This document shows, in pieces, positions 1-18,612 of a DNA stretch of 64,000 nt. Numbering within the stretch: position 1 is the first letter of the stretch; each line of letters begins with the position of its first letter. Origin of the DNA: Anaerohalosphaeraceae bacterium. Its GTDB lineage: Bacteria; Planctomycetota; Phycisphaerae; Sedimentisphaerales; UBA12454. The position numbers were made by a program, and so were the translations under genes. The notes under the pieces were generated by a model. It had not been told where the DNA came from, ran no database searches, and saw only the letters and a program-made list of their open reading frames with translations. The stretch is taken from NCBI GenBank assembly GCA_021108375.1, contig JAIORA010000048.1, positions 62,001 to 126,000 on the forward strand. The letters run 5' to 3'.

Positions 1-2728
1 TCATAATATTGAACCAGCCGGACATTTCCGGATAGGTAATTACAGCATCGGTTATCTTGTATGAATCGTCCAGTGCTGAAACCACATTGGGAGCGGCAGC
101 GGTTCCGAATCTACTGGTAGCCCAACTCAACAGAAAGTCATTGGAATCAAAGCTACACGGGTCCCAGGCAATTCTGTTGCCAGCCAGCCGAGATGGTTCA
201 TAAAGCACATCGGAGGCATCCGGCCCTCTCGTATTTGCCTGCCCGCTGACTCCTTCGTTGGCCATAGCCATCGCACGACTGCAAAATTTCGGGCCGGTAT
301 AACACAATTGAGCCGGACAAGGCTGGTTCAAACTGGGATGATAATTATGCCATCCGAAAGTCTCCATACGCGGCATATCGACATACTGTGTAAAATCGTT
401 TTTCCAGGCATAATCGTTTGCCGGCGGAACAGTCAGCTTTGCCCGGAACCGAACATCTGTCGGCAAATCACCGGACAAGCTCTCAAATAAGTTGGGATTA
501 CCGCCCAAACCATGATTGATTATTCCCCACGGACGCAGATATACCTTGGGGGCATCGAAGTCATCTGGATAAGAATAATTAGGGTCATAACCTCTGGCCT
601 CAAGCATCGCTTTCCTTATCAGATTAACATACTCAATGAGCCTGTTCCGGTACAATGTAGTGTCGTATTCATTGCCGCAATCGCCACAGCCACAGGAATA
701 AATACTTTGACAATGCTCTCCGATATTGAGCAAAATGCCGCCTATATCATTAACATCTTCAAAAAGGTTTCTGATTTTATTATAGAGCAAATCCTTGCTG
801 GCCTGTTTGCTCGGACAGATAAAGGGGTGATAGTACTCGGTTCGACGATACGGCTCTGTCTCAGGATGAACAGCAATAAAATTATCAATCATCCATTCCG
901 GCATCGAGGGTAAATAGCTGAATACATACACCTTAGCACCGTAGGCCTTTGCTGTGGCAATAGAGCTTCTCATACCATTGCGACTGGCCTCTACCCTGAC
1001 TGTATAAGCTTCACGCTGCGCTTCGTCATCAAACAGATTAGCATCATAATGGTAAATTGGTGTGCTGTCGGCATACTCATTCATATAATAACTGGCAAAA
1101 TTGGCACGTTTGTATGTATCACTGGTACGGGTCTCAAATGTTGGCCGGCTGGCAATATCAAAATCCTGCTCCAATACAACAATTCCCTCAATGTCAATTC
1201 TGTCGCGAAGCTCAATCAAACCATACAGAACACCGGTTAGTGTTTTGCCGGTAACGAGTATTTTACTATCATCAAAGCTCTTGACATAAAAACCCTGCTC
1301 GCCAACCCAGTTCACATCTACCGTAAGATTAGCATCTGCAACCAAAGGAGCTATGCAGGGGTCATCATATTTCCCGGCATATATGACAGTTTGCTGGTTG
1401 CAATCGACGGCAATTTTTATATCATCCCAATAGCCGGAATCCCCATCCTTCCAGAAACGGCATTTTATTCTGTCGAAAGAATCAGCATCGCTGTTCTCAA
1501 ACGGACGATTAATATCCTCTGCTTCCCAAGCACCTGCACCTGCCTGTTTTACTCTTAAGTCAAATGTTTTGGCTGAAAAGTCTGTTGTCAGTTCAAACTT
1601 ATACCAGGTATCCAGCGAAAAATCGCTCAACAGTATTACATCGGAAAAGTTGCTTCTGCAAACAATCCTTTTTATTGCACCTCCGCTTAAACATTCCATC
1701 CTTACCGTTGTAGCCAGCCTGTCGAAATCGTCAGTGAAGTAGGTATAATGCGTGCGGTATCCATTCCCGCCCCACACATATTTTCCGTACCAGGTTGCAA
1801 CATACTTATCGGTATTAAAACCACTGCCAAAATCAAGGGCTGTACTTCCCTCGCCACTGGAGCCTTGTACCCTGCCACACTGGCTTCCTACATAAGCGCC
1901 GCTGGTCGCAATGGTAGTTGAGCCTGCTGTCGGAACCCAGTTCAGATTGGAAATAATATCCGGCTCATCCCATATATTACTAACAGAAGTATCCCATGTT
2001 CCCGTCCCTGCGCTGTCAAGCTCAAAATTGGTATTTACAATGTCGGATGACACTGGCGGCGAACCGAGGGACGACACTTTGCCGATGACTTCCGCTGTTT
2101 CCGCTATCCCCTCAAGCGTATCATCAACAAATAACTGTATAGGCCTTGTAAGAGCCTCCGGAGAGGCCTTATAACCGTCCCACCTCAGAGAAACTTCCTG
2201 GCCAGGCCTGCTCTCATGGCTTCGCAAACGAAATTGCAGTTTGGAAACATATTTGGGGTTAAAATCCGGATCTATAGAATGATTGTCAGCAGTTCCTGCC
2301 TGACCCTGTTGCAAACTGAACTGAGTCCATTCGTCTTCGGTCATACTCGACCACCATCGCCAGTACTCATAATTGCCGCTCGTATCGTACAAATAAATAT
2401 AGACAGAATTAATCGTATCTCTGGTTACCGGACAAACCGAAAAGACCATCCCGACATCAGTCATATCCACCGGAGTACCCAGCTTCTTTGAGATGTAGGC
2501 AATTTCATAGCTGGCAGCACCAGCACTTACAGTAAATGTGAGTTTGATGCTGGCTGAACCCTCAATCTTATCATTTGAGTCCACCACCATCACAGCATTG
2601 GGGTCAGCGGCACTAATAGAGAGGCCGTTAGTATCATCAAAATTCTCATAATAGACCGAGGCATTCGCAATCGAAGCCAACAGGACAACGCCAATCACGA
2701 CAATTAAATTTATCATCCACCTTTTCAT
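1..2728 (-). CDS. giant secreted glycosidase-like protein, C-terminus cut by window edge
   Basis: An open frame of 909 codons runs from ATG at 2728 (SD AGAGAGG about 6 nt upstream) to the window start without a stop. Seen in order: a signal peptide (about residues 1-23), a beta-rich N-terminal domain, a segment matching the N-terminus of the protein at 4507-7275 (QLFVDD..EGIAETAEVIG), an inserted ~200-residue domain (about 1412-2042 nt), then again the paralogue's sequence (WVGEQGFYVKS.., NDIGGILLNIGEH, CGCGDCG, DMPRMETFGW). The architecture resembles families with a GH20/GH67-type N-terminal domain followed by a TIM barrel (DUF4838-like, with a Cys cluster). The substrate is unknown; the pectate-lyase-like neighbour suggests a uronate-rich polysaccharide. 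By comparison with the paralogue, about 390 C-terminal residues lie outside the window. Expression under the LacI-type regulator is inferred from gene order. Confidence 0.72.
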   Translation of the reverse strand, partial: MKRWMINLIVVIGVVLLASIANASVYYENFDDTNGLSISAADPNAVMVVDSNDKIEGSASIKLTFTVSAGAASYEIAYISKKLGTPVDMTDVGMVFSVCPVTRDTINSVYIYLYDTSGNYEYWRWWSSMTEDEWTQFSLQQGQAGTADNHSIDPDFNPKYVSKLQFRLRSHESRPGQEVSLRWDGYKASPEALTRPIQLFVDDTLEGIAETAEVIGKVSSLGSPPVSSDIVNTNFELDSAGTGTWDTSVSNIWDEPDIISNLNWVPTAGSTTIATSGAYVGSQCGRVQGSSGEGSTALDFGSGFNTDKYVATWYGKYVWGGNGYRTHYTYFTDDFDRLATTVRMECLSGGAIKRIVCRSNFSDVILLSDFSLDTWYKFELTTDFSAKTFDLRVKQAGAGAWEAEDINRPFENSDADSFDRIKCRFWKDGDSGYWDDIKIAVDCNQQTVIYAGKYDDPCIAPLVADANLTVDVNWVGEQGFYVKSFDDSKILVTGKTLTGVLYGLIELRDRIDIEGIVVLEQDFDIASRPTFETRTSDTYKRANFASYYMNEYADSTPIYHYDANLFDDEAQREAYTVRVEASRNGMRSSIATAKAYGAKVYVFSYLPSMPEWMIDNFIAVHPETEPYRRTEYYHPFICPSKQASKDLLYNKIRNLFEDVNDIGGILLNIGEHCQSIYSCGCGDCGNEYDTTLYRNRLIEYVNLIRKAMLEARGYDPNYSYPDDFDAPKVYLRPWGIINHGLGGNPNLFESLSGDLPTDVRFRAKLTVPPANDYAWKNDFTQYVDMPRMETFGWHNYHPSLNQPCPAQLCYTGPKFCSRAMAMANEGVSGQANTRGPDASDVLYEPSRLAGNRIAWDPCSFDSNDFLLSWATSRFGTAAAPNVVSALDDSYKITDAVITYPEMSGWFNIM
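1412..2042 (-). other. copy 1 of the repeated NTxFE...FDDIKV domain, nested in the glycosidase-like gene
   Basis: These nucleotides encode about 210 residues that start IVNTNFELDSAGTGTWD, contain LDTWYKFELT..FSAKTFDLRVKQAG and FDRIKCRF, and end YWDDIKIAV. The same pattern makes up most of the proteins at 8310-9086, 9173-10078 and (twice) 10125-11681. In the paralogous protein at 4507-7275 the flanking sequence is continuous without this block, so it is an insertion within a domain. Confidence 0.7.
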
Positions 2729-2852: not shown

Positions 2853-4223
2853 TTATCTGGGCCCGTCTCCTTCATTAACCCGCCAAGAGAGGTACTCTTC
2901 AAGGTTGGTATAGCCGTCTCCGTCTGGGTCGTAATTCCTGTCGGCGGCATTATTAGGGTTCAGCCCATAACAATTTTCCCAGAAATTCGGCATGCCGTCT
3001 CCATCACTGTCAGGGTAAGGTGTGTAGGACTGAAGGTATGGCCAGCCGCCGACATCTGCCTCATCATTGATAAAATAACCGGTGCCGTTCTCCACATCGC
3101 TTACGATACGATCATCAACTGAATCACGGTCGGGATATGTCGCACCAGCATAATCCAGAACACGATTGTAGGCTGTAGTAGCGTTATGCGTTGTTACCGG
3201 CTGCACAGAATAAGGACTGCTCTGCTTGTAAGCGGCTTTTTGCGATGTGGTAAAATCGTAAAATTTAACAATACTCCATGGATCAGATGGGTACGAGCCA
3301 TCAAACCAATTACCGCTGAAATAACCTCTTGCCGTAGTTGTATATTCCCCAAAAGCATGATAGGTGCTATTGGCGTTATTACCTTTTATGTAACAATTGT
3401 TTATAAAATTTGATTTGGTGATACTATCTACATCGTTATCACCATCCGCGTTATATCCTGCATGTTTTCCGCCACAATTGTACATAACATTGTTGCGGAA
3501 ATCAAAGGTCCAACCTTGTGTGTCCGCATCGTAGTAATTTCCAGGACGAGGACATCGGCCTGAATGAGCAAAAAGATTATGGTGAAAACTAATTTTTATA
3601 CCATAACAACCTCTAATTAATGAAGCGTATGGATGGCCGGCGTAATTCAGAGCTTCACTAATTATACACCACTGATAAGTAACATTATCGGAATACTGAG
3701 AACTACTATAACCACCGACTGAAGCTATTTCATCATTTCCCCAACTAAGCGAGCAATGGTCAATCATTACATTTTTTCCATTAGCAACAGTCAGACAATC
3801 CTCTTCGTCAAGACGATTGCCATTATTTCCGCAACGGCTTCGCAAATGACGAATAATAATGTGGTTAGCGTTATTGACACGAAGCTCGTTATTTGCAATG
3901 CAGATACCATCGCCCGGAGCCGTTTGACCGGCAATAGTAAGGTAAGATGTATCAACTAACAACCGACTTGACAAATATATAGTACCCGATACATCAAAAA
4001 CAATGGTGCGAGGGCCGGAAGCATTATCAATACCGTAGCGTAGTGAGCCGTAACCGGAATTATTAAGATTTGTTACATGATAGACATCTCCACCACGACC
4101 ACCCCGTGCCCACCTGCCCTCACCCTCAGCAGTCGGAAAAGCGCGAGGAGAGGCACCACTGGCTCCCTGAATTGCCCAGAAGAGCATAAACATTACTGTT
4201 AATAACAATGATCTCTTTTCCAT
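2853..4223 (-). CDS. secreted pectate-lyase-like protein with calcium-binding tail
   Basis: This 456-residue protein has a signal peptide (residues 1-23) and a single-stranded beta-helix domain opening AFPTAEGEGRWARGGRGGDV, then TIVFDVSGTIYL and LTIAGQTAPGDGI, the signature of PL1-type polysaccharide lyases of planctomycetes and Bacteroidetes. HIIIRHLRSRCG and NVMIDHCSLSWGND are parallel-coil rungs that usually carry the catalytic cleft. The C-terminus (DSDGDGMPNFWE, then DPDGDGYTNLEEYL) is a thrombospondin-3/EF-hand-like calcium-binding segment common in exported enzymes. The probable reaction is beta-elimination of pectate or a related uronan outside the cytoplasm. The start at 4223 has an AAAGGA SD. 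It sits between the two giant glycosidase-like genes, suggesting a shared substrate. Confidence 0.82.
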   Translation of the reverse strand: MEKRSLLLTVMFMLFWAIQGASGASPRAFPTAEGEGRWARGGRGGDVYHVTNLNNSGYGSLRYGIDNASGPRTIVFDVSGTIYLSSRLLVDTSYLTIAGQTAPGDGICIANNELRVNNANHIIIRHLRSRCGNNGNRLDEEDCLTVANGKNVMIDHCSLSWGNDEIASVGGYSSSQYSDNVTYQWCIISEALNYAGHPYASLIRGCYGIKISFHHNLFAHSGRCPRPGNYYDADTQGWTFDFRNNVMYNCGGKHAGYNADGDNDVDSITKSNFINNCYIKGNNANSTYHAFGEYTTTARGYFSGNWFDGSYPSDPWSIVKFYDFTTSQKAAYKQSSPYSVQPVTTHNATTAYNRVLDYAGATYPDRDSVDDRIVSDVENGTGYFINDEADVGGWPYLQSYTPYPDSDGDGMPNFWENCYGLNPNNAADRNYDPDGDGYTNLEEYLSWRVNEGDGPR

Positions 4224-4506: not shown

Positions 4507-7275
4507 TCAATAACCGCCATCCCGTTGCTCAGTACGGCTATGCGGCAAAATCTTCGTTCCCCACAATGGTGGTATTAGTTTTTCCTTAAATGGGTTAAGA
4601 CTCGTATGCGGCTTGAGCTTGTAAAGTTTTTGCTCCGTTGGCGTATATAGCCTTGCAAAGAAAAACTCCGTGCCGATACAGTCCGACATTGAGGTAAATG
4701 TCAACTCGTGGCTGTTTCGGTTTTCAATCGCGGGCAGTTTTATATATCGGACAAATTCATTATCCTCCATTGAATCGCCGGTCGCAATATCCGTCAAAGT
4801 TGAAACATTTTTGCCGTCCAGTTCGATTTTCAAAATAGACTTACGGCATAATCTTCGAGTATTCGAACCTAATGGAACAAACCTCAAAACAAGCATTGCC
4901 CCATCACTTAAATCGCCATTGAATTTCACCCTCATTTTCGGCAATATCCAAGGCGATACTACTGCCGCAAGTTTATTTTCGCCATTGGCATCATTAACAT
5001 CAACAATATATTCCTCGCCTTTCCACCGCTTGAGCAGCCTCGGATAAACATTGCTCCATTTCAAATTGTCCGGAAAAGGTGCATATCTCCTGTAGCCTGT
5101 GTACTCATCGTTTTCGCACTCCCACAGCAAATAAGGATATCTCTTCGCCCTGAAGGGTTCCATTACGAGCCGGTTGTACGCATTTTGGCACTGCTGGCGC
5201 GTAGAAGCCACCTGGCCAAATATCGGATAAATCCGCGGTTTCAGTGTTTTGAGTTCACTCGGCTGTCGGCTGAAGTAATCACTGCCAATTTGAGGATGGG
5301 CCTTATGTATCCACCGCCCGTACTTTTCCATTTGCGGCACAGCCAATTTGATATGCTCAACGGCAAGCTTGTGATATTTTTCGCTAAGCTGCCTCTCGGT
5401 TGTTTCGCTCATATTATTGTAGATAAGAGCAAAGTGGTAGTGGTGATAGAATCTGGTCAGGCCGGCAGTAGCTTTGCCGAGCATCCAGAACCGCTCAAGA
5501 GTTTTATTTTTCGGACAAACGGCCATAGCTTTGGTTAGTTTCGCTTCGGCGTTGTCGGCTATTTTAATTGCTTCGGTAAGTTTGAACTTCGACAATACCT
5601 GCTCAAGAGTTTTTTCGTTCACAGACAAAACATCGTTGGTCTGAGCAGTGGTATTGGTAGCGGTATAGCAATGTGTCCTTTTGTCTTTTACAAAATTAAA
5701 CATATGAAACCAATTGGTATTTTTCGACAAAATTATGAATGCATCGGTTAATTTGTATGTGTCTTTCAATGCATCAGCCACATAAGGAGCAGCCTCATTA
5801 CCAAACCTTTTTTGTGCCCATTTCAGCAAAAATTCGTAAGAGTCAAAATTGTATGGGTCCCAGGATATTTTATGTGATGCCAGCCTACTCGGCTCGTAAA
5901 GAACATCATCCTCAGCTTTCATTACCCTGATAGTAGGCTGACCTTTCATTCCCATCGCAGCGAGTTTCTCAAGCCGAGCTTTCAATTTCGGAGCTGTATA
6001 ACAAAGTTGCGTTCTGCACGGCTGGTTAAGTTCCGGATGATGTGTATCCCAGCCAAAAGTCTCCATTCGAGGCATATTTACAAACGGATTAAAATGGTCA
6101 TTCCAGAGATAATCACTCCCCGGCGGAACGGTTACCTTTGACCAAAAACGAATGTCTTTGGGAAGTTTCTCTGCCAAGGCAAAAAACTTGTTAGTGTCCG
6201 CTTCCAGACCGTGCTTAAAAATGCCCCACGGACGAAGATAAATAACAGCGTCAGGAGTGCTTTCGTGCATCGCTTTACGAATCAACATAAGATACTCGTA
6301 AAGCCTGTCCTCGTAAGACTGAGCTTCGCACTTTTCACAGCCGCAGGAAAAAATGCTTTGAGTGTGTTCGCCGATATTGAGAAGTATTCCGCCAATATCA
6401 TTAACATCAGCAAAAAGATTCTTGATTTTGTTGTACAACGCATCTTTGCTTGCCTGTTGAGACGGACATATAAAAGGATGCCACCACTCGGTTTTGCGAT
6501 AAGGTTTCACTTCCGGACGGGCGGCGATAAACGAATCCCTGCCCCACCACGGCAGTGTTGGCTGATACATAAACAGATAAACTTTGGCACCATAGGTTTT
6601 CGCTTCGGCAATTTTGTTTTTTAATCTTTCTCTGCGAACCATAACCTTGCGGATATGTTCGCTGCGGGTCTTCTCATCGGGAAATATCTCAGGGGAGCTT
6701 TCATACAAAAACAAACTGCTGTCTCTACCATCTGGATTCTGCTGTTCGGGAGACCAGAAATTGACGAAATTGGCACGCTTTTTAAGGTCGCCCTTACGAG
6801 TATCAAAGACAGGCCTGTCCCTGACATCAAATTTTTGTTTTTTTGATACCTCCCGCCCATCATCTTTAATTCGGTCGCGTAGTTCCATCAGGCCGTAAAG
6901 CAAGCCGACCTGAGTATTAGCTGTAATAAGAATTCGGCCATCTTCAAGGCTCTTGATATAAAAACCCTGCTCACCGAGCCATTGCGTTTCAAGTTTGGTT
7001 AATGATTTGAGAAGTGGAATAATATATTTATTATTCAGTCTTGCCGCAATAATAGAATTATTCACATCCTTGCTGCCAGGCATATCCGCAAGACTGCAAA
7101 CACTGCCTATCTGCGATGCTGTTTCAGCTATACCGCCGATAGCATCAGTTTCTACAAAAACCTGTGTTTCAAGTGATGCCGTAATTGCACCTAAAGCTGT
7201 CGCAATTCCGCCGAAAACAGTAATGCTCAAAAAAAAGACAGATAGACGAAACAGAACATTCCTACGCATTGTCAT
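4507..7275 (-). CDS. giant secreted glycosidase-like protein (paralogue of gene at 1-2728)
   Basis: About 922 residues. ATG at 7275 is preferred because GGGAG lies 5 nt upstream; the TTG at 7287 would overlap this SD. A signal peptide (MRRNVLFRLSVFFLSITVFG) is followed by an N-terminal alpha/beta domain of GH20/GH67-N type (LETQWLGEQGFYIKS, ITANTQVGLLYGLMELRDRI), a probable TIM barrel (TYGAKVYLFMYQP; NDIGGILLNIGEH; FSCGCEKCEAQ; IYLRPWGIF; MPRMETFGWDTHHP) and a helical/beta C-terminal region. It aligns end to end with the partial neighbour except for that gene's inserted domain. A catalytic acid pair cannot be assigned from sequence alone. It is probably exported and acts on a plant- or algal-type polysaccharide; exact family and activity are unknown. 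Confidence 0.75.
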   Translation of the reverse strand: MTMRRNVLFRLSVFFLSITVFGGIATALGAITASLETQVFVETDAIGGIAETASQIGSVCSLADMPGSKDVNNSIIAARLNNKYIIPLLKSLTKLETQWLGEQGFYIKSLEDGRILITANTQVGLLYGLMELRDRIKDDGREVSKKQKFDVRDRPVFDTRKGDLKKRANFVNFWSPEQQNPDGRDSSLFLYESSPEIFPDEKTRSEHIRKVMVRRERLKNKIAEAKTYGAKVYLFMYQPTLPWWGRDSFIAARPEVKPYRKTEWWHPFICPSQQASKDALYNKIKNLFADVNDIGGILLNIGEHTQSIFSCGCEKCEAQSYEDRLYEYLMLIRKAMHESTPDAVIYLRPWGIFKHGLEADTNKFFALAEKLPKDIRFWSKVTVPPGSDYLWNDHFNPFVNMPRMETFGWDTHHPELNQPCRTQLCYTAPKLKARLEKLAAMGMKGQPTIRVMKAEDDVLYEPSRLASHKISWDPYNFDSYEFLLKWAQKRFGNEAAPYVADALKDTYKLTDAFIILSKNTNWFHMFNFVKDKRTHCYTATNTTAQTNDVLSVNEKTLEQVLSKFKLTEAIKIADNAEAKLTKAMAVCPKNKTLERFWMLGKATAGLTRFYHHYHFALIYNNMSETTERQLSEKYHKLAVEHIKLAVPQMEKYGRWIHKAHPQIGSDYFSRQPSELKTLKPRIYPIFGQVASTRQQCQNAYNRLVMEPFRAKRYPYLLWECENDEYTGYRRYAPFPDNLKWSNVYPRLLKRWKGEEYIVDVNDANGENKLAAVVSPWILPKMRVKFNGDLSDGAMLVLRFVPLGSNTRRLCRKSILKIELDGKNVSTLTDIATGDSMEDNEFVRYIKLPAIENRNSHELTFTSMSDCIGTEFFFARLYTPTEQKLYKLKPHTSLNPFKEKLIPPLWGTKILPHSRTEQRDGGY

Positions 7276-7346
7276 AAAAACTCCCAATGAAAATTATTAT
7301 CGAACTTTGTGTGCGGCTCTCAATTTTGAAGGGTACAAAACCGATT

Positions 7347-8093
7347 TTACCAGAAATGGCGAGTTTTACCGCCATCATAATGACGATCCGGGCTATCTGC
7401 CGTATCATTAAGCCGTTTCCAGAAAACATTGCCGCCGTTATGCAGCATAAGAGCTCCCTCGCGTTTTCTCATAGTATGACTCCACGACCACCAAGGATAA
7501 ATAGTTCTGGTCCAGTCGCTGGCCCAGTCTGACATCAGTGGAAAGTCTGACTTATCAACACTCCTTTTCGGCATTCGCTCTTTTTCTTTACGGTCGCGCC
7601 AATCTCCACCATCAGTGCCTGTAAAATTACCGAAGTAATTGTAGCCGATTGTGCCAACCTGACCCCAATCCGCCGTTGTGTTCTCCATTGTATGCACATT
7701 CGAGCAATACAGTGCTTTGTGATTTTTGATATATGATGAATAAAATGGGCTTACCCACTCTGAACCACCAGACAATGCATTAATTTTGGACAGATGATAA
7801 GCGTGATGGGGATGTTTTTGTGCGGAACCTGTAATACTTTTCTCTGTTGTTCCCCCTATTTCGACTTCAACTATATCGTGCGACGGATATTTCGTGTTAT
7901 AATCACCTGCATATACCGTTAGAGCTAAGTGGCACTGATGCAGATTATTGCTGCAAATAACTCTTTTAGCCAACTCCCTTGCTCTTTGCAGTGAAGGCAT
8001 CAAAATTGCCAAGAGCATAGCAATAATGGAAATAACAACCAAAAGCTCTACCAAAGTAAATGCCTTATACCCCCTTTTTTCGTGACTCAACAT
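7347..8093 (-). CDS. pseudopilin-leader secreted protein (DUF1559-like, H-X9-DG type)
   Basis: The 248-residue product begins with a type IV prepilin leader: basic residues, then [20 protein letters not shown], where cleavage would fall before F with Glu at +5. The rest is a globular export domain ([21 protein letters not shown] is the typical continuation). Near the C-terminus HNGGNVFW...HYDGG resembles the H-X9-DG tail motif of planctomycete DUF1559 proteins. ATG at 8093 has AAGGAG 8 nt upstream; the upstream TTG at 8099 is too close to that SD. Lying in the polysaccharide locus, it may be a surface or pseudopilus-attached component, but its role is unknown. A related protein is at 44852-45664. 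Confidence 0.75.
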
Positions 8094-8309
8094 ATCCAAA
8101 ACTCCTTAATCGTCTTTAATTCCACTACGCCGTTAAGCATTAACCATTACGACTATATAAACCAAAAGGTCTGTCCTTTTTTTATATCAATAATAGCGAA
8201 TTATAAATTTCCAAATACCGCTCCAGCCAAGGCGACCTGCTCATACAACTGATGAACCGGACGCCCTGACCAAAAACAGCAATAACTTTACTCTTGCGCA
8301 AACTTCAAT

Positions 8310-9086
8310 TTAGCTGCGTCGGCGTTTCAAAACAAGCAAACTACCTAAACTAAGCAGTACCATTGTTGCAGGCTCAGGAACTATCTTAATATCATCGAAG
8401 TAGCCATAAATACTGTCGCTTCGGCCATAACCATAGACCCTGTCGAGTGAAGCACTGTCAGCATCATAGAAATCCTGATTCAGTGCAGTACTCCAGTCAT
8501 CTGTTGAACCAGCTTCTCTGGCCTTGATGTCAAACTTTTTGGTTGAGTAGTCCAATGTCATCTCGAACTCATACCAGGTATCAGCCACAGCAGCCATTAT
8601 CGTGGTGAAACCACTACCATCGTATATCTCGATGTTACCATTACCAGGATTTACCTGAATCCTGGCGGCCTTCTTGGCACTGTCGTCCATAATCATAAAG
8701 TAAGAATACCGGTTGCCGCTGTCGACTCGTATCGCGGTTTTCTGATACCAGGTTACTAAGTATTCACCTGTGTTGCCACCGTCAGCGAAGTCCAGCTTGG
8801 CATACTTTTCACTGGTGCCGGAACCGGTTAATCTGCCACACGCCGTGCCGCTGTAGGCCTCACCGCCGCCAACAACTTGCTGGTAACTGGTATTATTCAG
8901 CCACTTGACCATTGAGGCCGGGTCGGGGTCGTTGTTACCGGCACCCGCATCAGCATCGCCCCATTCATGGCCTGTGTCCCAGGTACCTTCACCAGCACTG
9001 TTTGGCTCGAAGGTCGTATTGACCAACGCAGCACCTGCCGGTAATGCTACGCACATTACCACCATTAAAACAATTAACTTTTTCAT
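8310..9086 (-). CDS. secreted single-domain protein with PEP-CTERM tail
   Basis: A signal peptide (MKKLIVLMVVMCVALPAGA) leads into one copy of the repeated domain (VNTTFEPNSAGEGTWD; WYEFEMTLDYSTKKFDIKA; LDRVYGYG; YGYFDDIKI). It ends in a PEP-CTERM anchor: VPEPATMVLL, hydrophobic stretch, then KRRRS. PEP-CTERM proteins are sorted to the outer surface in exosortase-containing bacteria. ATG at 9086 is chosen because GGAGG lies just upstream and the ATG at 9101 sits on that SD. Function unknown; the domain could bind carbohydrate, as it has the beta-sandwich-like pattern and occurs inside a glycosidase-like protein. Confidence 0.8.
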   Translation of the reverse strand: MKKLIVLMVVMCVALPAGAALVNTTFEPNSAGEGTWDTGHEWGDADAGAGNNDPDPASMVKWLNNTSYQQVVGGGEAYSGTACGRLTGSGTSEKYAKLDFADGGNTGEYLVTWYQKTAIRVDSGNRYSYFMIMDDSAKKAARIQVNPGNGNIEIYDGSGFTTIMAAVADTWYEFEMTLDYSTKKFDIKAREAGSTDDWSTALNQDFYDADSASLDRVYGYGRSDSIYGYFDDIKIVPEPATMVLLSLGSLLVLKRRRS

Positions 9087-9172
9087 TTTCTTCGCCTCCA
9101 AAACTAAAAACTTTCAGACATTTTCTTCATCGCAACGCACGATGAATCTTAATGCTCAAGTAATTTAATAAA

Positions 9173-10078
9173 TTAAAAACATTCGTTATTGTAAGGGTCA
9201 GTGCAGGCCAGCCAGTTTTCAGCTAAAATAGCCATATCCTCGAAATCCACATAGCAGTCCTCGTTCAGGTCTCCTTTGGCATAGCCCCAATCGCCGCACT
9301 CGTATGTCGGCAAACCCTCTACCACTTTAATATCGTCAAAGTAGCCGTAAACCGTGTCCTTCGAAGCCTCACAATATATACGGTCAAACGATACGCAGTT
9401 TGCATCGACAAAATCTAGGTCATCTAATGTACCCTGCCAAAATGAATTGCCTGCCTCTTTGACCCTGACATCAAATTCCTTGGCCTGAAAATCAAGAACC
9501 ATCTCGAATTCATACCAGACACGGTCAAGCATACCAGACATCAATGTTGCTGTTCCGCCGCCATAGGAAACCACAATAGCATGCAGATCTTCACTCATAA
9601 TCACTTTTACTGCCTCGTTGTAGGGGTCTGATTTATCTATAATCCACACGAAAGAGCTTCGGGAACCAGAAACCTCACTTTGAGAGGCATTATACTGAAG
9701 CCAGGTCATTGTATAGACATCGTTGTAATCCCCCAATGTACCGAATTCCAGTTTGGAATACTTCGCGCCGCTACTCCTGCCTCTGAGCCAACCGCATTGG
9801 TCCCCTGAAATGGTAGTATCACTCGGACCAAACTGAGGATAGGTTGCATTTCTAATCCACTCTACTCCCGAACAGGGGTCAACTGCTCCACTGTATGGTT
9901 CGCTGGTTTGACGACCCCAACGAACACCATATTCATCATTGTCCCATGTCATTGGCCCGGCACTATCCACCTCAAAAGTCGTGTTGACCAGCACATCCCC
10001 ATCGGCAGCATTTGCCACGCCGACAGCCAAAACAAGCATTCCTATTGTTACGCTAAATAATATAGCAAACTTTTTCAT
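9173..10078 (-). CDS. secreted single-domain protein with dockerin-like tail
   Basis: 301 residues: signal peptide (MKKFAILFSVTIGMLVLAVG), one copy of the repeated domain (VNTTFEVDSAGPMTWD; VWYEFEMVLDFQAKEFDVRV; SFDRIYCEA; YGYFDDIKVV), then a dockerin-like half EF-hand (GDLNEDCYVDFEDMAILAEN, followed by W-L-A-C-T-D-P). Such tails are abundant in Phycisphaerae secreted proteins. The AAGGAGG SD before ATG 10078 is strong. Compared with the gene downstream, the domain is the same but the anchor differs (dockerin-like here, PEP-CTERM there). Function unknown. Confidence 0.8.
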   Translation of the reverse strand: MKKFAILFSVTIGMLVLAVGVANAADGDVLVNTTFEVDSAGPMTWDNDEYGVRWGRQTSEPYSGAVDPCSGVEWIRNATYPQFGPSDTTISGDQCGWLRGRSSGAKYSKLEFGTLGDYNDVYTMTWLQYNASQSEVSGSRSSFVWIIDKSDPYNEAVKVIMSEDLHAIVVSYGGGTATLMSGMLDRVWYEFEMVLDFQAKEFDVRVKEAGNSFWQGTLDDLDFVDANCVSFDRIYCEASKDTVYGYFDDIKVVEGLPTYECGDWGYAKGDLNEDCYVDFEDMAILAENWLACTDPYNNECF

Positions 10079-10124: not shown

Positions 10125-11681
10125 TTAGAACCTAACACAGTTTGCGTCATTGGGGTCGGAACATTCTACCCAATCCTGCGAGAAAGCCGCAAAATCTTTG
10201 AAGTCAACATAGCAGTCTTGGTTGAAGTCGCCTTCTTTGTAGCCATAACCACCGCAGCCATACAGCGAGACCTCAAAATCATCCCAATACCCATTGGCAC
10301 CGGTCTGGTCAACTTTGCATTGTATCCAGTCGAAAGAATCAGAGATGTCAGCATTTCGCAAATACCCATCGACCATACCTTCCCATTTGGATTCGCCTAA
10401 TTCCCTTACTTTGACATCAAATGTCTTATTTACGAAATTCAACTCTGCTTCAAAACCATACCAGGAGCCTGCGTTATAATTGCTTAGCAGCGTTTTTGCT
10501 ATCTTGCTTCCACCGATAGTGCCACAATTAACTGATATTTCCGTTGCCGCTCCGGTGTTATCGCTCCCCATAGTTATCGCCAAGGCGATATTCGCCCAAG
10601 TCCCTGTATTCGGGCCAATGTCGCTACCAATAATCGTGCGTACATAGTTGTTCTTGGTTGAACCGGCATATTCGTATTTCTGCCACCATTTCATAGTGTA
10701 AATACCGACATTGTTGCCATCGTCAAAGTTCAGCGCAACTACCGTTCCATAAGGAGAGGTGGCCGTACGCCAAATTTTACCTGCCGCTGAGGCATCGTGG
10801 GATGCGCCGGAAGCAGTTACAATACCATTTGCATCACCCTGAAAATCATACCATTGGTCGGTGCTGATTGGGTCGGGGTCGTTGCCATCGCCCCACAAGT
10901 CATCTGCAGGCCAGGTTCCAGCTCCGCCGCTGTTCACCTCAAAAGTCGTACCAACAAGGTCAATAACTCCGCCCGACGGCAGTACCTGTACGGTAATATC
11001 ATCAAAGAAACCGAAAATCTTATTTGATGCAGCCCGACAGTAGATACGGTCAAAAGAATCGCTGTCGGACGAAACAAAGTTTGCATCGTTTAACGTGCCT
11101 ACCCAACTTACATCGTTTGCTTCCTTAGCTTTAATATCAAACTTCTTTGTCTGATAGTTCAATGTCAACTCAAACTCATACCAGGAATCATTTTTCATAT
11201 TGCTCAATACTGTCGTAACTCCATCAGCAGTGTGAACCGAAATAGTATTGCCATCGGCATTCATAGTAACCTGTGTAGCCTCGTCGACATCATCATCGAT
11301 AATCCACACATTGGAATGCCTATCTCCCGTATTCGAGTCTTGTATCTGATTGAGCTGATACCACTTTACTACATAAGTACCAGTTTTAGAGCCGTTACCG
11401 AATTCCAGCTTGGCATACTTGTTGCCGGTAACTCTTCCAGCCTGACCACCTTTCCAGACACGGCTTGTCGCAATGATAGCCTTAGAGTTGTCATTTGCTA
11501 CCCAGTTAATACCACTGGCAATATCCAGCTCGTCCCACACATCGCTTACAGATGTGTCCCATGTCTGGTAGCCGGCACTTTCCTTTTCAAAGGTTGTTTT
11601 GACCAGATAGCCCCCCATAACAGGAACCACTGTCAAGCCCAGCAAGCACACAACAATAAATAAAATACCTGACTTTTTCAT
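10125..11681 (-). CDS. secreted protein with two copies of the repeated domain and dockerin-like tail
   Basis: 518 residues from ATG 11681 (GAAGGAGG SD; the upstream in-frame start at 11702 lacks one). After the signal peptide come two tandem copies of the repeated domain: copy A (VKTTFEKESAGYQTWDTSVS ... SWYEFELTLNYQTKKFDIKA ... FFDDITV) and copy B (VGTTFEVNSGGAGTW ... SWYGFEAELNFVNKTFDVKV ... GYWDDFEV), then GDFNQDCYVDFKDFAAFSQD as a dockerin-like end. Copy A is clearly closest to the copy nested in the gene at 1-2728 (both read TWDTSVS followed by WDE). It is the first structural gene after the regulator, 73 bp away, so it is probably read through from that promoter. Confidence 0.8.
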   Translation of the reverse strand: MKKSGILFIVVCLLGLTVVPVMGGYLVKTTFEKESAGYQTWDTSVSDVWDELDIASGINWVANDNSKAIIATSRVWKGGQAGRVTGNKYAKLEFGNGSKTGTYVVKWYQLNQIQDSNTGDRHSNVWIIDDDVDEATQVTMNADGNTISVHTADGVTTVLSNMKNDSWYEFELTLNYQTKKFDIKAKEANDVSWVGTLNDANFVSSDSDSFDRIYCRAASNKIFGFFDDITVQVLPSGGVIDLVGTTFEVNSGGAGTWPADDLWGDGNDPDPISTDQWYDFQGDANGIVTASGASHDASAAGKIWRTATSPYGTVVALNFDDGNNVGIYTMKWWQKYEYAGSTKNNYVRTIIGSDIGPNTGTWANIALAITMGSDNTGAATEISVNCGTIGGSKIAKTLLSNYNAGSWYGFEAELNFVNKTFDVKVRELGESKWEGMVDGYLRNADISDSFDWIQCKVDQTGANGYWDDFEVSLYGCGGYGYKEGDFNQDCYVDFKDFAAFSQDWVECSDPNDANCVRF

Positions 11682-11754
11682 TTCAACCTCCTTCTGAATC
11701 AAAATAATTATTTAATAAAACACACAAATTCTTTTTGTACCGATTTTTTGCTAA

Positions 11755-12840
11755 TTACTTTTCTGTTATACTTATTTTCTTCTCTGACCGCACCTCGCCG
11801 GCTGATTGACGAATGATAAATTTGCTGGGGATTGCTATCTGCTTAGGCTCATCAATATCACGCTCTATTCCTTCCATAAGCAGTTCAAAGGCAGAATTAA
11901 CCATTTCCTCTACCGGCTGAGCAATTGTGCTAAGCGGCGGCTGGGAATATGCCATCGTACTTACATCATCAAAACCTACAATTGATATATCCTGCGGTAC
12001 TCTTATGCCCATACGAGCCAGGGCCGAAGTCAAAAACAAGGCAAATTCACTTTGAATACATATAATCGCGGTACATTCAGGATGGGACTTCAGGAATTTC
12101 TTTGTTTGCAAAAAAGCCAAATCAACATCAATGATGTGGCGAGTACCTTTATTGGCATAACTTTCATCGGTGCTATACAACCTATCCTGGCCTTTGCCGA
12201 AACCGTGCGATTCGATACTTTTATAGAATTCTATAAAACGCATATCTTTCTCCCAGCCTGGCCAACACATAGAAAACATATAAATCTGACTGTGCCCAAG
12301 TCGATAAAGATGGTTTATCGCCTTTCTTATGCCAATGCTTACATCCTGGCATACCAACCTGTGGGAGGAATAGGCCGATTTGCCAAACAATGTCCCACTA
12401 AACAACACTGTCGGTACGGAAAATTTGAGCTTCGTTTGTATCTCTTTGACAGTCGCTTCCGGAAAAGCTCCCTTAACAATGAGGCCATCCACGCCGCGTC
12501 CAATTAACTTATGTGCCCGCTTTACCGTTATATCAAGATTACCTTTGGTATGAGCAACATACACTTCATAGCCGGCATTGTTGGCAAGCTCGTCCAGCTT
12601 CGCTTCCATAGTTGATGTTATCTCAAGAGATGGAGACCCCGCCAAAAAACCTATTGTCTGCGTCTTACCAAGAGACAGACCTCTGGCTACTAAATTAGGC
12701 TTGTAATTCATTTCTTTTGCCAGTGATTTGATACGGTTACGTGTACTAATGGATATTTGGGAATCGTCCCGCAGTGCCCTGCTGACGGTACCACGTGAGA
12801 TGCTTAGCTTTTCAGCGATAGAACTAAGAGTTGTTGCCAT
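11755..12840 (-). CDS. LacI-family transcriptional regulator
   Basis: 361 residues with the N-terminal LacI helix-turn-helix (TLSSIAEKLSISRGTVSRAL, then RNRIKSLAKEMNYKPN, residues about 4-55) and a periplasmic-binding-protein-like sugar-sensing core (IGFLAGSPS; GVDGLIVKG; ISIVGFDDVSTMAYSQPPLS). It should repress or activate the downstream enzyme genes in response to a saccharide. Its own promoter overlaps a pair of near-palindromes (12882-12915), so autoregulation is likely. Which sugar it senses cannot be read from the sequence. Confidence 0.92.
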   Translation of the reverse strand: MATTLSSIAEKLSISRGTVSRALRDDSQISISTRNRIKSLAKEMNYKPNLVARGLSLGKTQTIGFLAGSPSLEITSTMEAKLDELANNAGYEVYVAHTKGNLDITVKRAHKLIGRGVDGLIVKGAFPEATVKEIQTKLKFSVPTVLFSGTLFGKSAYSSHRLVCQDVSIGIRKAINHLYRLGHSQIYMFSMCWPGWEKDMRFIEFYKSIESHGFGKGQDRLYSTDESYANKGTRHIIDVDLAFLQTKKFLKSHPECTAIICIQSEFALFLTSALARMGIRVPQDISIVGFDDVSTMAYSQPPLSTIAQPVEEMVNSAFELLMEGIERDIDEPKQIAIPSKFIIRQSAGEVRSEKKISITEK

Positions 12841-12929: not shown

Positions 12930-13665
12930 GTGAAATAAACCGCAAATTTTAGAAAAATGTTTAAATCACCAAGAAATGTCGCCCAACTCCTTTGTTTACA
13001 AGATGTTAAGAGATACCAAGAGATGCTAAGAGATGTTAAATGTCAAAGCAACCACTCTTCGGAAGGGTCAACAGTCCTTCAAAACAAGTGGGGAATTGTT
13101 TTTTTTCTGGAAAGGGGCGGCTTACAACCACCCCGTAGCCTTAGCCAGCAATGTAAGCCTTCACAGAAATTTTAAAAAGTTTAAAAAATCCAAAGAAAAA
13201 AGTAGCACGCCGATTTAGCTTCTGTTACAAACAAACGATTAATCGTGATTCACAATTCTCTTGTCAAATTCGGAGATTTGCCGGAAGTCGATTTCGACAA
13301 AGCTTCTAAAAACGATATTACCAAGGCCTGGAATATAATCTTTTCCTCTGAGTAGCTCACCATCTAACTTAGATTTCTGCTTTCGCAAGAATGACAAATC
13401 TGCGTAATTTGTGAAATCTGTGTCTAAAAAAACAGACTTCAAAACTCCAGACATGTTGCAGAATACGCAAAAAAATGGCCAAGATAGAGTAGTTTGCGCA
13501 AAATTTGCGCTATACATAGAGCTACCCTTAATTTCATCTTAAATTTTCTTGCAATACTGGCCGGTTTTATGTAGGGTGGGTGAAAATTTGCCGGAGCGAG
13601 TTTGCTGGCTTTTTTTGTTATTGCTCTTTGGCATAATTGGTGTAATTCATTGTAAATAAACAATT
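12930..13665. other. gene-poor stretch upstream of the LacI-type regulator and tRNA-Ser
   Basis: No convincing full gene. It holds a 10-bp tandem repeat (13001-13040) and, around 13242-13357 on the plus strand, an open run of about 35 codons ending in TAG (LVKFGDLPEVDFDKASKND) that looks like the tail of a lost gene. The longer open frames on the minus strand have no SD and no recognisable domain. Confidence 0.5.
13001..13040. repeat. 10-bp tandem repeat, four units
   Basis: Four consecutive 10-mers: AGATGTTAAG, AGATACCAAG, AGATGCTAAG, AGATGTTAAA. The period is close to one helical turn. Confidence 0.75.
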
Positions 13666-13755
13666 GGAGAGGTGCCCGAGTGGCTTAAGGGAACGGTTTG
13701 CTAAACCGTCGTATGGATACAATCCGTACCGGGGGTTCGAATCCCCCCCTCTCCG
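13666..13755 (+). tRNA. tRNA-Ser(GCT)
   Basis: A 90-nt class II tRNA: acceptor GGAGAGG/CCTCTCC, D-arm with CCCGAGTGG, anticodon arm ACGGT-TTGCTAA-ACCGT with anticodon GCT, a long variable arm, and T-arm GGGGG-TTCGAAT-CCCCC, discriminator G. CCA is not encoded. Its 3' end abuts a decayed tyrosine recombinase gene, as is usual for tRNA attachment sites. Confidence 0.95.
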
Positions 13756-14457
13756 TTTCTTTTTTATTCGCCAAAATCACGTCTATAAGCTCTTGTAGTT
13801 CAGGCACTTGCGAATTGTTTACTATTTTAGACTGCCCTGTTGCCCTTAAGTTGCCCTTATTTGGAGCAGGTACAATTTCAACTTCATGGCTTTTAGCCAG
13901 TTCCATCATAGCGTTCTGGCTGTCCTCATCATGCAAATAATAGTAAAGGTCAAGGATGTCTGAGGAACTATGTCCAAGCCAAGCCAGTGCTTTGCGGTAA
14001 GCAACACGGTGGTTGGCACACAGACTTGCAAAGTAAAGTGATGTCTGAATGAATGCAACTTGTATTGGGTTGGATTTTCGAATTTACATTCTGCACATAA
14101 AATTTTAATGTGTTTTAACAGTTTCCTTTCGTTAATAGCAGGGAGAAGAACTCCTTTATTCTCTCTATATGATTTCAACAATTCAGCGATTTGAGGATGT
14201 ACAGGCACAAATCTATCCTCTTTATCCTTGGTTGTACCGTTTGAGCCGCCTCTTCGGATATGAATCATAGTGAATTGTTTTTCATCTTTCACAATATCTT
14301 CCCTCCGAAGCTGCTCAACTTCACCTACACGCAAGCCGGCATATCCCATCAAGGCAAATGCGATTTTTTCCTGCCCATCTGCTAATTGAATTAAAGATTC
14401 AATCTGGCTGATGGTAAAGCAAGGTTGAGGCTTGGCCTTTGCCTTTGGGAATGACAC
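13685..14457 (-). pseudogene. tyrosine recombinase (phage-type integrase), frameshifted and 5'-truncated
   Basis: The catalytic domain is recognisable: GLRVGEVEQL carries the first Arg and LHSFRHHF the H-x-x-R. Just after HHF a tandem AAAGT duplication (14030-14039, plus strand) shifts the frame. In the other frame the protein continues ASLCANHRV, ALAWLGHSSSD and DLYYYLHDED, supplying the last catalytic His and the Tyr nucleophile. The core-binding N-terminal domain is missing; upstream sequence switches to an IS3-type transposase start. The downstream frame runs through the antisense of the tRNA-Ser gene and stops at 13685. The enzyme once integrated an element at this tRNA but cannot be functional now. 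Confidence 0.85.
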
Positions 14458-15701: not shown

Positions 15702-17099
15702 TTAATTTGTCCAGAAGTTATAATCATCATCTCCATCCTCAGTAATATCTAGAGGACATTCATCAACAGTCCCTTGATTAAAAAATGTATTGAAAATTTG
15801 AAGGTCAACATTACTAACGCGAAAAGGGCCTTCTTTATGATGATTGAGGTCGGCGCAAATACCATTATTTATTTGCATAAGTTCTTCATCAGTTTTATTA
15901 AAAGCCTGTAGAAACACTTGAAGGTCAACATTACTAACTCTAAACGGGCCGTTTTGGATACCGTCGATATCGCCTCGGCAATTATATCTATAACACCAAC
16001 AGGAAGGCTTATCCCATTCAAGCCAGTCCCAAAAACTTGGATTGCAACTACTCATACAGGTATCAGGATTTAGTACCGTTATTGTTGCATTTGTGTATGC
16101 ATGGTATGGTATATTGCAACATACATTTTCAAGAAAAACATCACCATTAATCACCCATATTGAGTAATTATAATCAGTTTCTTTATCTAATTCAACACTA
16201 AAGGTAGTATTATATATGTATGTTTCAGGTTCTATGGAATCGTTAATATCGGTATCTGATTGTGAAAGACCAATGATAGCATCAGTTGTTTCACTTGGTG
16301 TATTTGAATTAATAATGCTATTATATATTTTTAAAATGGCATCGTTATTAGTAATTGCAATAGTTGCAGAGGCTCCGCCATTCTTATCTCCAAGTTCTGC
16401 AGAAATAACACATGAGGTAACATTTACATCTAAATTACCATCTAATTCCAAGGCAAATGTATCGCACATATAATCATAACCAGAAGTTACAATGTCAGTA
16501 TCTATTATTGTATGAATGGATCTTATTGGGTCATATATTCCATCCTTAATTCCTAAGCCATATTCATTACCATTAATGAGACATTTCGATATATTGGTAT
16601 TATTGGTTTCTTTGAAAAGAACGGTATGACCAAAACCTTCACCGGATTGTTCTCCAGAATTGCCGTTTTTGCCACGTAGAAAACAACAGTTTTCCAAGCT
16701 AATGTCATTGATTTCTGAAGCTAAAACTGAACAGCGATCATCTGGAACAGGCTTTTCGTAACGGTCATGTATGACTGTCAAGTTTTTTAATACACACCCA
16801 TTTCCTAGTTTTATTGTGAAATCATTTGGGCTTTGTTCATTAGGGTCTTGGATGATAACTGACTCTTTGTCACCTATACCTTCCAAAGTTATGTTATTTT
16901 TGACTGACAAGTCAACATATTCTTCATAAGTTCCCGGGTAGATTGCTATAGCATCACCGTTTTGTGCATTTTGAAGGGCCTCATTTATGTCAATATAACT
17001 ATTTGGGACATTCTGGGTTCCGTCAACTATCAATGTATCCCCAAAAAGAAATTGACTACAGAACACTGCAACAGATAAGATTGCAATAATTTTTTTCAT
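15702..17099 (-). CDS. secreted right-handed beta-helix protein with two dockerin-like repeats
   Basis: 465 residues: signal peptide (MKKIIAILSVAVFCSQFLFG), then DINEALQNAQNGDAIAIYPG, T-Y-E-E, the usual opening of parallel beta-helix (Pbl-repeat) proteins, followed by helix rungs rich in N and I/V. A CWC..NC cysteine segment precedes two near-identical dockerin-like half EF-hands (both with GPFRVSNVDLQ). Dockerins bind cohesins in clostridia; in planctomycetes their partner is unclear. The neighbouring lipoprotein might be its surface partner, which is inference. Substrate unknown. Confidence 0.75.
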   Translation of the reverse strand: MKKIIAILSVAVFCSQFLFGDTLIVDGTQNVPNSYIDINEALQNAQNGDAIAIYPGTYEEYVDLSVKNNITLEGIGDKESVIIQDPNEQSPNDFTIKLGNGCVLKNLTVIHDRYEKPVPDDRCSVLASEINDISLENCCFLRGKNGNSGEQSGEGFGHTVLFKETNNTNISKCLINGNEYGLGIKDGIYDPIRSIHTIIDTDIVTSGYDYMCDTFALELDGNLDVNVTSCVISAELGDKNGGASATIAITNNDAILKIYNSIINSNTPSETTDAIIGLSQSDTDINDSIEPETYIYNTTFSVELDKETDYNYSIWVINGDVFLENVCCNIPYHAYTNATITVLNPDTCMSSCNPSFWDWLEWDKPSCWCYRYNCRGDIDGIQNGPFRVSNVDLQVFLQAFNKTDEELMQINNGICADLNHHKEGPFRVSNVDLQIFNTFFNQGTVDECPLDITEDGDDDYNFWTN

Positions 17100-17640: not shown

Positions 17641-18612
17641 AGAGGAAATTGCATCAAAAATCTTTCTGGGCATAATCACGTTTCCAAATCGCATAAAATA
17701 TCAGCTTACTACGAACCCAATTCTCTACCCTGAATAGGCCGCAAACCCAACTTGGTAAAGGCTTCAAGCCAAAACTTAAATTACATAAATGACCAAACAT
17801 ATGCTCTATGCCGACACGGCTGCGAATCAAGCCATCAACGAATTTACTATCTAAACGCTTAAGCATATCAAGGCGATAGGGGCTATGTTTACGATGCCCT
17901 ATTCCCCTGGCTTTTCTGCAATAACGACGAGCGATAAGACGAATCGATTTTGAACCGGCAAGATCGTAAAGAGCATTTTTGTCATAAGCACTATCGCCAA
18001 TCAGATAGCCCTGGGGTTCTATTTCATTTACCAATTCGCGAGCTACTTTGCTCTCGCTAAAGTTCATAGGCCTGATTTTCCAGTTTACAAATCCCTGTCT
18101 GGAATCAGCGATTGCATACAGTTTATAGCCTTTGCCCATTCCACCGCCGGCATATCCATATCCGGCCTGCTTATCACCGCTGGAATTGCTTATCAGCAAT
18201 CCTTTAGCATCTATCCATCTGCAAATGTTTCTTTGGTTAGTATCTTTCAATTTCTCTTCAATGTTCCTGAGTAATTTCTGAACACCGACAGTTCTTAATC
18301 TTCTGCTCATCGTTGAAGCATCTGGCAGGTTTTGTCTTCTGTGGTATACGGGCCAGTTTTTTTTCTTACATGCCCAGCAGGTTGGCCGATCATGTAAGAC
18401 TGCCCACAGATAAACTTTGACAATATCAGCGTCAGTAAATTTGGCTCTTTTCAATTTAGTTTTTCTGTAAAGATCCATGATAATCTGATAGACTTTCCTG
18501 AAGAGTTCGCTTTCCATAATACTCCTTTCATAATAAACGAAATTACCAAGAGTATTATATTGGCGAACTCCTTTTGTCGCAATAGTTTATCTACTTTCGC
18601 GCAATTTCCTCT
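17641..18612 (-). mobile_element. complete IS5/IS4-type insertion sequence
   Basis: A 972-bp element bounded by perfect 12-bp inverted repeats AGAGGAAATTGC (17641-17652) and GCAATTTCCTCT (18601-18612). It carries one full-length DDE transposase gene. The flanks are the two halves of a hairpin repeat (CCCCCTCAT at left; TCATCAGGGGG at right), so TCAT may be a 4-bp target duplication if the left end includes four extra bases. Confidence 0.8.
17654..18517 (-). CDS. IS5/IS4-family DDE transposase
   Basis: 287 residues. Probable catalytic triad D103 (CRWIDAKGLL), D175 (YLIGDSAYDKNALYDL) and E238 (RSRVGIEHMFGHL); the Y-E/R-type signature after the third acid and the SAYD motif fit the IS5/IS4 superfamily with DDE_Tnp_1. 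Length is normal and the frame is intact, so the element may be active. It sits tightly inside the terminal repeats. Confidence 0.88.
   Translation of the reverse strand: MESELFRKVYQIIMDLYRKTKLKRAKFTDADIVKVYLWAVLHDRPTCWACKKKNWPVYHRRQNLPDASTMSRRLRTVGVQKLLRNIEEKLKDTNQRNICRWIDAKGLLISNSSGDKQAGYGYAGGGMGKGYKLYAIADSRQGFVNWKIRPMNFSESKVARELVNEIEPQGYLIGDSAYDKNALYDLAGSKSIRLIARRYCRKARGIGHRKHSPYRLDMLKRLDSKFVDGLIRSRVGIEHMFGHLCNLSFGLKPLPSWVCGLFRVENWVRSKLIFYAIWKRDYAQKDF

Follow-up and report, generated by a model that had tools for sequence, protein, structure and literature searches.

A lectin-like domain nested within the N-terminal domain of predicted glycoside hydrolases from a Phycisphaerae bacterium

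The window analysed here is a stretch of 64,000 nucleotides from the genome of an Anaerohalosphaeraceae bacterium (G000:C5:62001-126000), and it begins with a gene cluster whose features are listed in Table 1. GH1 to GH8, STDa and STDb are labels used in this analysis, and TWD denotes the lectin-like domain. GH1 (2-2728) and GH6 are both encoded on the minus strand, and the full GH1 open reading frame (C5:60022-64740, 1573 codons) continues beyond the window; the complete protein also includes a beta-sandwich-like module at its N-terminus, with a TWD domain at the C-terminus and a dockerin-like tail. This C-terminal domain (C5:60231-60887, outside the window) is a sixth TWD copy and is 70% identical to the stand-alone protein at 8310-9101, whose PEP-CTERM motif scores above the cut-off with both PF07589 (22.5 bits vs 20.7) and TIGR02595 (22.6 vs 16). 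We note that the TWD/PEP-CTERM protein has 32 matches across the genome, some of them to the C-terminal anchor only. The LacI-family regulator at 11755-12840 is the probable controller of the cluster.

Table 1. Features of the cluster in the window, with the evidence for each.
Feature	Position	Strand	Evidence
Start of the predicted catalytic barrel region of GH1, continuing beyond the window to C5:60022	2..1183	-	Best fold match is to GH67 alpha-glucuronidase
Second part of the GH67-N-like domain of GH1, restarting at strand TVIYAG	1184..1405	-	Collinear 51% match to GH6; weak Pfam Glyco_hydro_67N
Nested lectin-like (TWD-type) domain, GH1 residues ~230-441	1406..2041	-	HMM match to stand-alone copies; alignment; all-beta fold in model
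First part of the interrupted GH67-N-like domain of GH1 (strand, helix, strand)	2042..2149	-	51% identity to GH6 residues 42-78; model strand 8-12, helix 19-26, strand 28-31
N-terminal beta-sandwich-like module, common to GH1, GH2, GH3 and GH4, not in GH6	2159..2656	-	Alignment
Pectate-lyase-like gene with no lectin-like domain (its C6 homologue has one)	2853..4223	-	Weak PF00544; 72% DNA match to C6:36555-37342
GH6, paralogue without the insert	4507..7287	-	BLASTP, alignment
Prepilin-like/DUF1559 protein, found in each related cluster	7347..8099	-	PF07963, PF07596
Stand-alone TWD domain with PEP-CTERM anchor	8310..9101	-	PF07589
Stand-alone TWD domain with dockerin-like tail	9173..10078	-	HMM match; tail identified by eye
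Two TWD domains (copies A and B) with dockerin-like tail	10125..11702	-	HMM match, alignment
LacI-family regulator	11755..12840	-	PF00356, PF13377

A sequence-only reading of this DNA had described GH1 and GH6 as tandem paralogues that match, part at a block found in the first alone, and then resume, and BLASTP recovers exactly this pattern as two collinear matches broken precisely at the block. GH1 residues 198-233 align with GH6 residues 42-78 (51% identity, E=3e-5) and GH1 residues 449-909 with GH6 residues 79-530 (51% identity, 479 bits, E=4e-159), and the interruption of ~210 residues is in GH1 alone of the pair. Its boundaries differ by only a few bases from the 1412-2042 first proposed. 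HMM scores and alignment place the block far above chance as a homologue of the four TWD copies in three neighbouring genes, in agreement with the earlier proposal that these genes encode the same domain, and the nearest copy within the window is, as also proposed, copy A of the gene at 10125-11702 (39% identity, E=2e-36, vs 30% and E=9e-24 for copy B).

The point of insertion was located in an AlphaFold model of GH1 (720 residues, mean pLDDT 69, pTM 0.46), which is adequate for the local insertion point but not for the orientation of the insert relative to the active site. Among the proteins of this genome, structure modelling covered those of the window. The elements modelled before the insert (Table 1) are followed after it by a strand (258-264), a helix (271-276), two strands (291-297 and 300-305) and a further helix (308-325). 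In the model the insert thus sits, as had been anticipated, in one loop of the N-domain, between predicted strands two and three of the GH67-N-like fold, which resumes normally; within the insert, most blocks between model residues 140 and 230 have a pLDDT near 90. Alignment, model and BLASTP agree on an independent domain within a continuous host domain, the architecture of a nested carbohydrate-binding module (CBM).

The same slot holds a TWD domain in GH2 (C6:43486-48207) and GH3 (C6:38998-43155) of the same genome, and in STDb, the nested enzyme of the MAG STD1_70 (L056:8546-13282). It is uninterrupted in alignments of GH5 (C1:69972-73529), GH6, GH7 (C6:48204-51032), GH8 (C1:67352-70078), STDa (the plain enzyme of STD1_70) and the proteins of the MAG SMBSF08. 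SMBSF08 (G198) was the one further near-family carrier from homologue searches of 118 relatives, 397 class genomes and 392 phylum genomes, and STD1_70, another Phycisphaerae MAG, is an extra carrier added by a scan of genome contigs. Because these searches returned so few carriers, the near family is rare and the polarity of gain rests on three genomes, for which reason the date of the insertion is also poorly bounded. There are 14 GH paralogues in this 2.4-Mb genome and no close GH homologue in the 118 relatives; a tblastn search of plasmids gave no match.

A catalytic-region tree recovers GH1, GH2, GH3 and STDb as monophyletic (100/99) and sister to GH4 (C1:77890-82212) plus GH5, the six forming a group at 100/100; GH6, GH7, GH8, STDa, the SMBSF08 proteins and the distant paralogues fall outside the nested clade, all without the block. 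The block has been gained rather than lost, and one gain in the ancestor of the nested clade accounts for its distribution. This is preferred to ancestral presence, which would require several losses. A block ancestral to the whole family and lost by GH6 and its relatives is very unlikely: losses are possible in principle, although nothing speaks directly for them, and separate events would be needed in GH5, in the group of GH6, GH7, GH8, STDa and SMBSF08, and in the distant clade. The sequence-only reading had named routine carriage of the block by GH6 homologues as the observation that would count against a gain, and the homologues at C6:48204 and C1:67352, in SMBSF08 (L057) and in STD1_70 (G771:C6:19100) are without it. 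That an assembly artefact fused two genes is scarcely credible, even for a MAG assembly with many related repeats, as the same architecture occurs at three places in the genome and in an independent MAG, and the copies have diverged, keep their reading frame and evolve under purifying selection. Domain capture, as first suggested, therefore stands to the extent that a domain was gained, every outgroup paralogue lacking it; capture that was recent and came from this locus does not, since the slot is filled elsewhere, in two other paralogues and a second MAG. The expected grouping of the nested copy with copy A failed to appear: in the TWD tree the nested domain of GH1 pairs with that of GH2 (99/98), the STDb copy joins them at 90/88, and forcing the GH1 domain together with copy A is 58 log-likelihood units worse (AU p=0.00108). 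Late copying of copy A into GH1 would fit the standing of copy A as the nearest relative within the window and the TWDTSVS motif present in both, but an identity of ~40% with saturated synonymous sites is not recent, and with the rejected grouping and the occupied slots elsewhere we consider such copying highly improbable. A wider clade that unites copy A with the three nested copies survives the test (p=0.081), and the nested domain may accordingly have arisen long ago from a copy-A-like ancestor. Between GH1 and GH2 the nested domains are 53% identical and the catalytic regions 60%, a similarity that co-inheritance predicts, and the nested pair has a dN/dS of 0.16 with dS near saturation at 2.6.

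The old insertion with its single gain is joined by an exchange of the occupant in GH3. The GH2 and GH3 enzymes are sisters (100/99) with 66.6% identity, whereas their nested domains share only 39.6%. Far closer to the GH3 nested domain is the TWD domain of the neighbouring pectate-lyase gene (C6:36274-38748), at 84% identity, with 88% DNA identity over 620 bp, a dS of 0.48 and a dN/dS of 0.16, and from these comparisons the GH3 slot was probably overwritten at some time. A separate block of 233 bp, comprising the upstream region and signal peptide, is 97% identical between GH3 and this lyase; we note that 590 bp lie between this block and the TWD block in GH3, and 8 bp in the lyase. The homologous lyase in the window lacks a TWD domain, and for this reason the C6 lyase probably gained its own. 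A clade of the GH2, GH3 and lyase copies is rejected (p=8e-6), so that simple donation by GH3 to the lyase is not the full account; a clade of the four nested copies is also rejected (p=0.0001), and one of all nested copies with the lyase copy is not favoured but not rejected (p=0.17). Independent insertions at one hot-spot loop, in GH1, GH2 and STDb on one side and GH3 on the other, would be in keeping with the rejection of the two clades, with a GH3 domain that is unlike the other three and with a second insertion site nearby in GH4. We nevertheless regard them as unlikely, since GH2 and GH3 are sisters within the nested clade, and replacement is simpler than loss or absence followed by reinsertion at the same point.

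Alignment places a further lectin-like domain in GH4 after strand three, where it replaces the helix that normally follows; by profile comparison this domain is distantly related to TWD (hhalign probability 97%). We rejected a displaced remnant of the older slot as its origin, because the GH4 sequence runs across that slot without a break. The GH4 insert (C1:78709-79248) and the protein's own C-terminal domain (C1:81670-82209) are identical at 539 of 540 bases and in frame, with no identity past either end and unrelated flanks, and further copies of the domain in the same C1 cluster have ~77-85% DNA identity. By sequence comparison, the pair would represent either a very recent insertion by self-copying, a very recent homogenisation by conversion, or an assembly error. 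The N-domain of the enzyme seems to have taken up and exchanged lectin-like domains more than once. We tentatively suggest, as a possibility somewhat short of an even chance, that the GH67-N-like domain is a docking slot, with at least two insertions at two loops, a replacement in GH3 and a recent self-copy in GH4; if true, the process of domain insertion would be visible in a wild bacterium as it happens.

The identity of the host enzyme is approached through remote similarities. Glyco_hydro_67N scores 12.5-20.2 bits, below the Pfam cut-off of 24.3, and is weakly positive in eight of nine members; the NF049878 alpha-d-galacturonidase profile shows a weak likeness over the N-domain (E=7e-5) at 21.1 bits against a cut-off of 1300, so that the enzyme is not a member. 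The best whole-length fold matches are GH67 alpha-glucuronidases (1mqq, 1h41) and the RG-II-active GH138 enzyme BP0997 (6hzg), at 13-17% identity and TM-scores of ~0.2 on a low-confidence model, with no family match above cut-off; the top match, to GH67 with its N-domain plus (beta/alpha)8 barrel, extends over ~534 columns with a TM of 0.21 for a model with pTM 0.46, and this low whole-model confidence makes domain orientation and enzyme class uncertain. A PDB sequence search with one protein gave no match, and a PDB search with the profile gave weak GH84/GH20-type matches only, over the N-domain. Nested and plain enzymes share many invariant residues in the catalytic region, suggesting that the insertion probably did not abolish the predicted activity. 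For TWD, in a model with mean pLDDT 71 and a poor first 64 residues, the fold matches are a BT_1020 domain (5mqr, E=1.4e-7, 16% identity), PL7 lyases and legume lectins. The closest fold is that of BT_1020, and the weak profile match to PF22585 (Sialidase-like_CBM, 19.8 and 15 bits) falls below the Pfam gathering cut-off of 27. A role in carbohydrate binding is likely from the modelled fold. The pectate-lyase-like genes, the weak alpha-galacturonidase profile and the GH67 and GH138 folds together suggest a uronic-acid-rich polysaccharide, such as pectin, as the substrate.

The explanation that we favour, and consider likely overall, is an old single insertion of a putative CBM in the ancestor of a GH clade, inherited since then and with an exchangeable occupant. 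GH1 would be one of a few related Phycisphaerae glycoside hydrolases that are secreted and probably cleave uronic acids. In the ancestor of this clade a single insertion would have placed a lectin-like beta-sandwich domain in the loop that links strands two and three of the GH67-N-like domain. The nested layout would then have been inherited through divergence of genes, clusters and species, with the occupant of the slot open to exchange, as in GH3. The nested domain would most likely serve as a CBM held beside the barrel on two tethers, keeping the enzyme on a pectin-type polysaccharide, and the two short tethers presumably anchor it more firmly relative to the barrel than linkage at one end would; stand-alone homologous copies carry PEP-CTERM or dockerin-like tails.

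Nested CBMs as such are already known. The SusG alpha-amylase has a CBM58 inserted in its GH13 B domain (PMC7848910), and resembles GH1 in having a carbohydrate-binding domain nested in a glycoside hydrolase, but host family and insert are unrelated, and the part of that source at hand describes no slot exchange for SusG. The Bacteroidetes GH10 xylanases Xyn10C and Pm25, whose CBM4 modules lie in the barrel between beta3 and alpha3 (PMC7848910), likewise have binding modules inserted into the enzyme chain, although there the catalytic barrel is interrupted, here an accessory N-domain, and the families differ. For the GH10 enzymes and SusG, the inserted CBMs are argued to work for the most part without dependence on the catalytic domain (PMC7848910). 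What is new here is the host domain, the fact that two loops have been used repeatedly, the replacement of a slot's occupant and the apparent near-identical self-copy. The window alone offers an old nested, putative CBM of moderate interest, which the related genes raise: with one enzyme family containing old, replaced and nearly unaltered copies, the source, boundaries and cost of insertion become measurable, and the bacterium may be able to diversify its polysaccharide binding without change to the catalytic part.

The C5, C6, C1 and STD1_70 loci share a common template. It combines a LacI-type regulator and a prepilin-like DUF1559 protein with stand-alone lectin-like proteins that end in PEP-CTERM or dockerin-like tails, and includes two GHs, one uninterrupted and one multi-domain, the regulator and tails outside the window having been read by eye from the sequence in the related clusters. 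This common template points to repeated duplication of a polysaccharide-use cluster. Adjoining the cluster in the window is a stretch with a tRNA-Ser gene near a short ORF that resembles tyrosine recombinases and another that resembles IS-type transposases (13665-13756, 13906-14457 and 17654-18517; ORFs by eye), and immediately outside the cluster lies a protein that has a dockerin-like tail and a weak pectinesterase match (15702-17099). In STD1_70, L056:58-5119 is repeated exactly in tandem at a 5,054-bp offset, through either a real duplication or an assembly error. This repeat creates a chimeric gene (L056:3492-7463) in which the nested half of STDb runs into the catalytic half of STDa, with ~9 bp common at the join.
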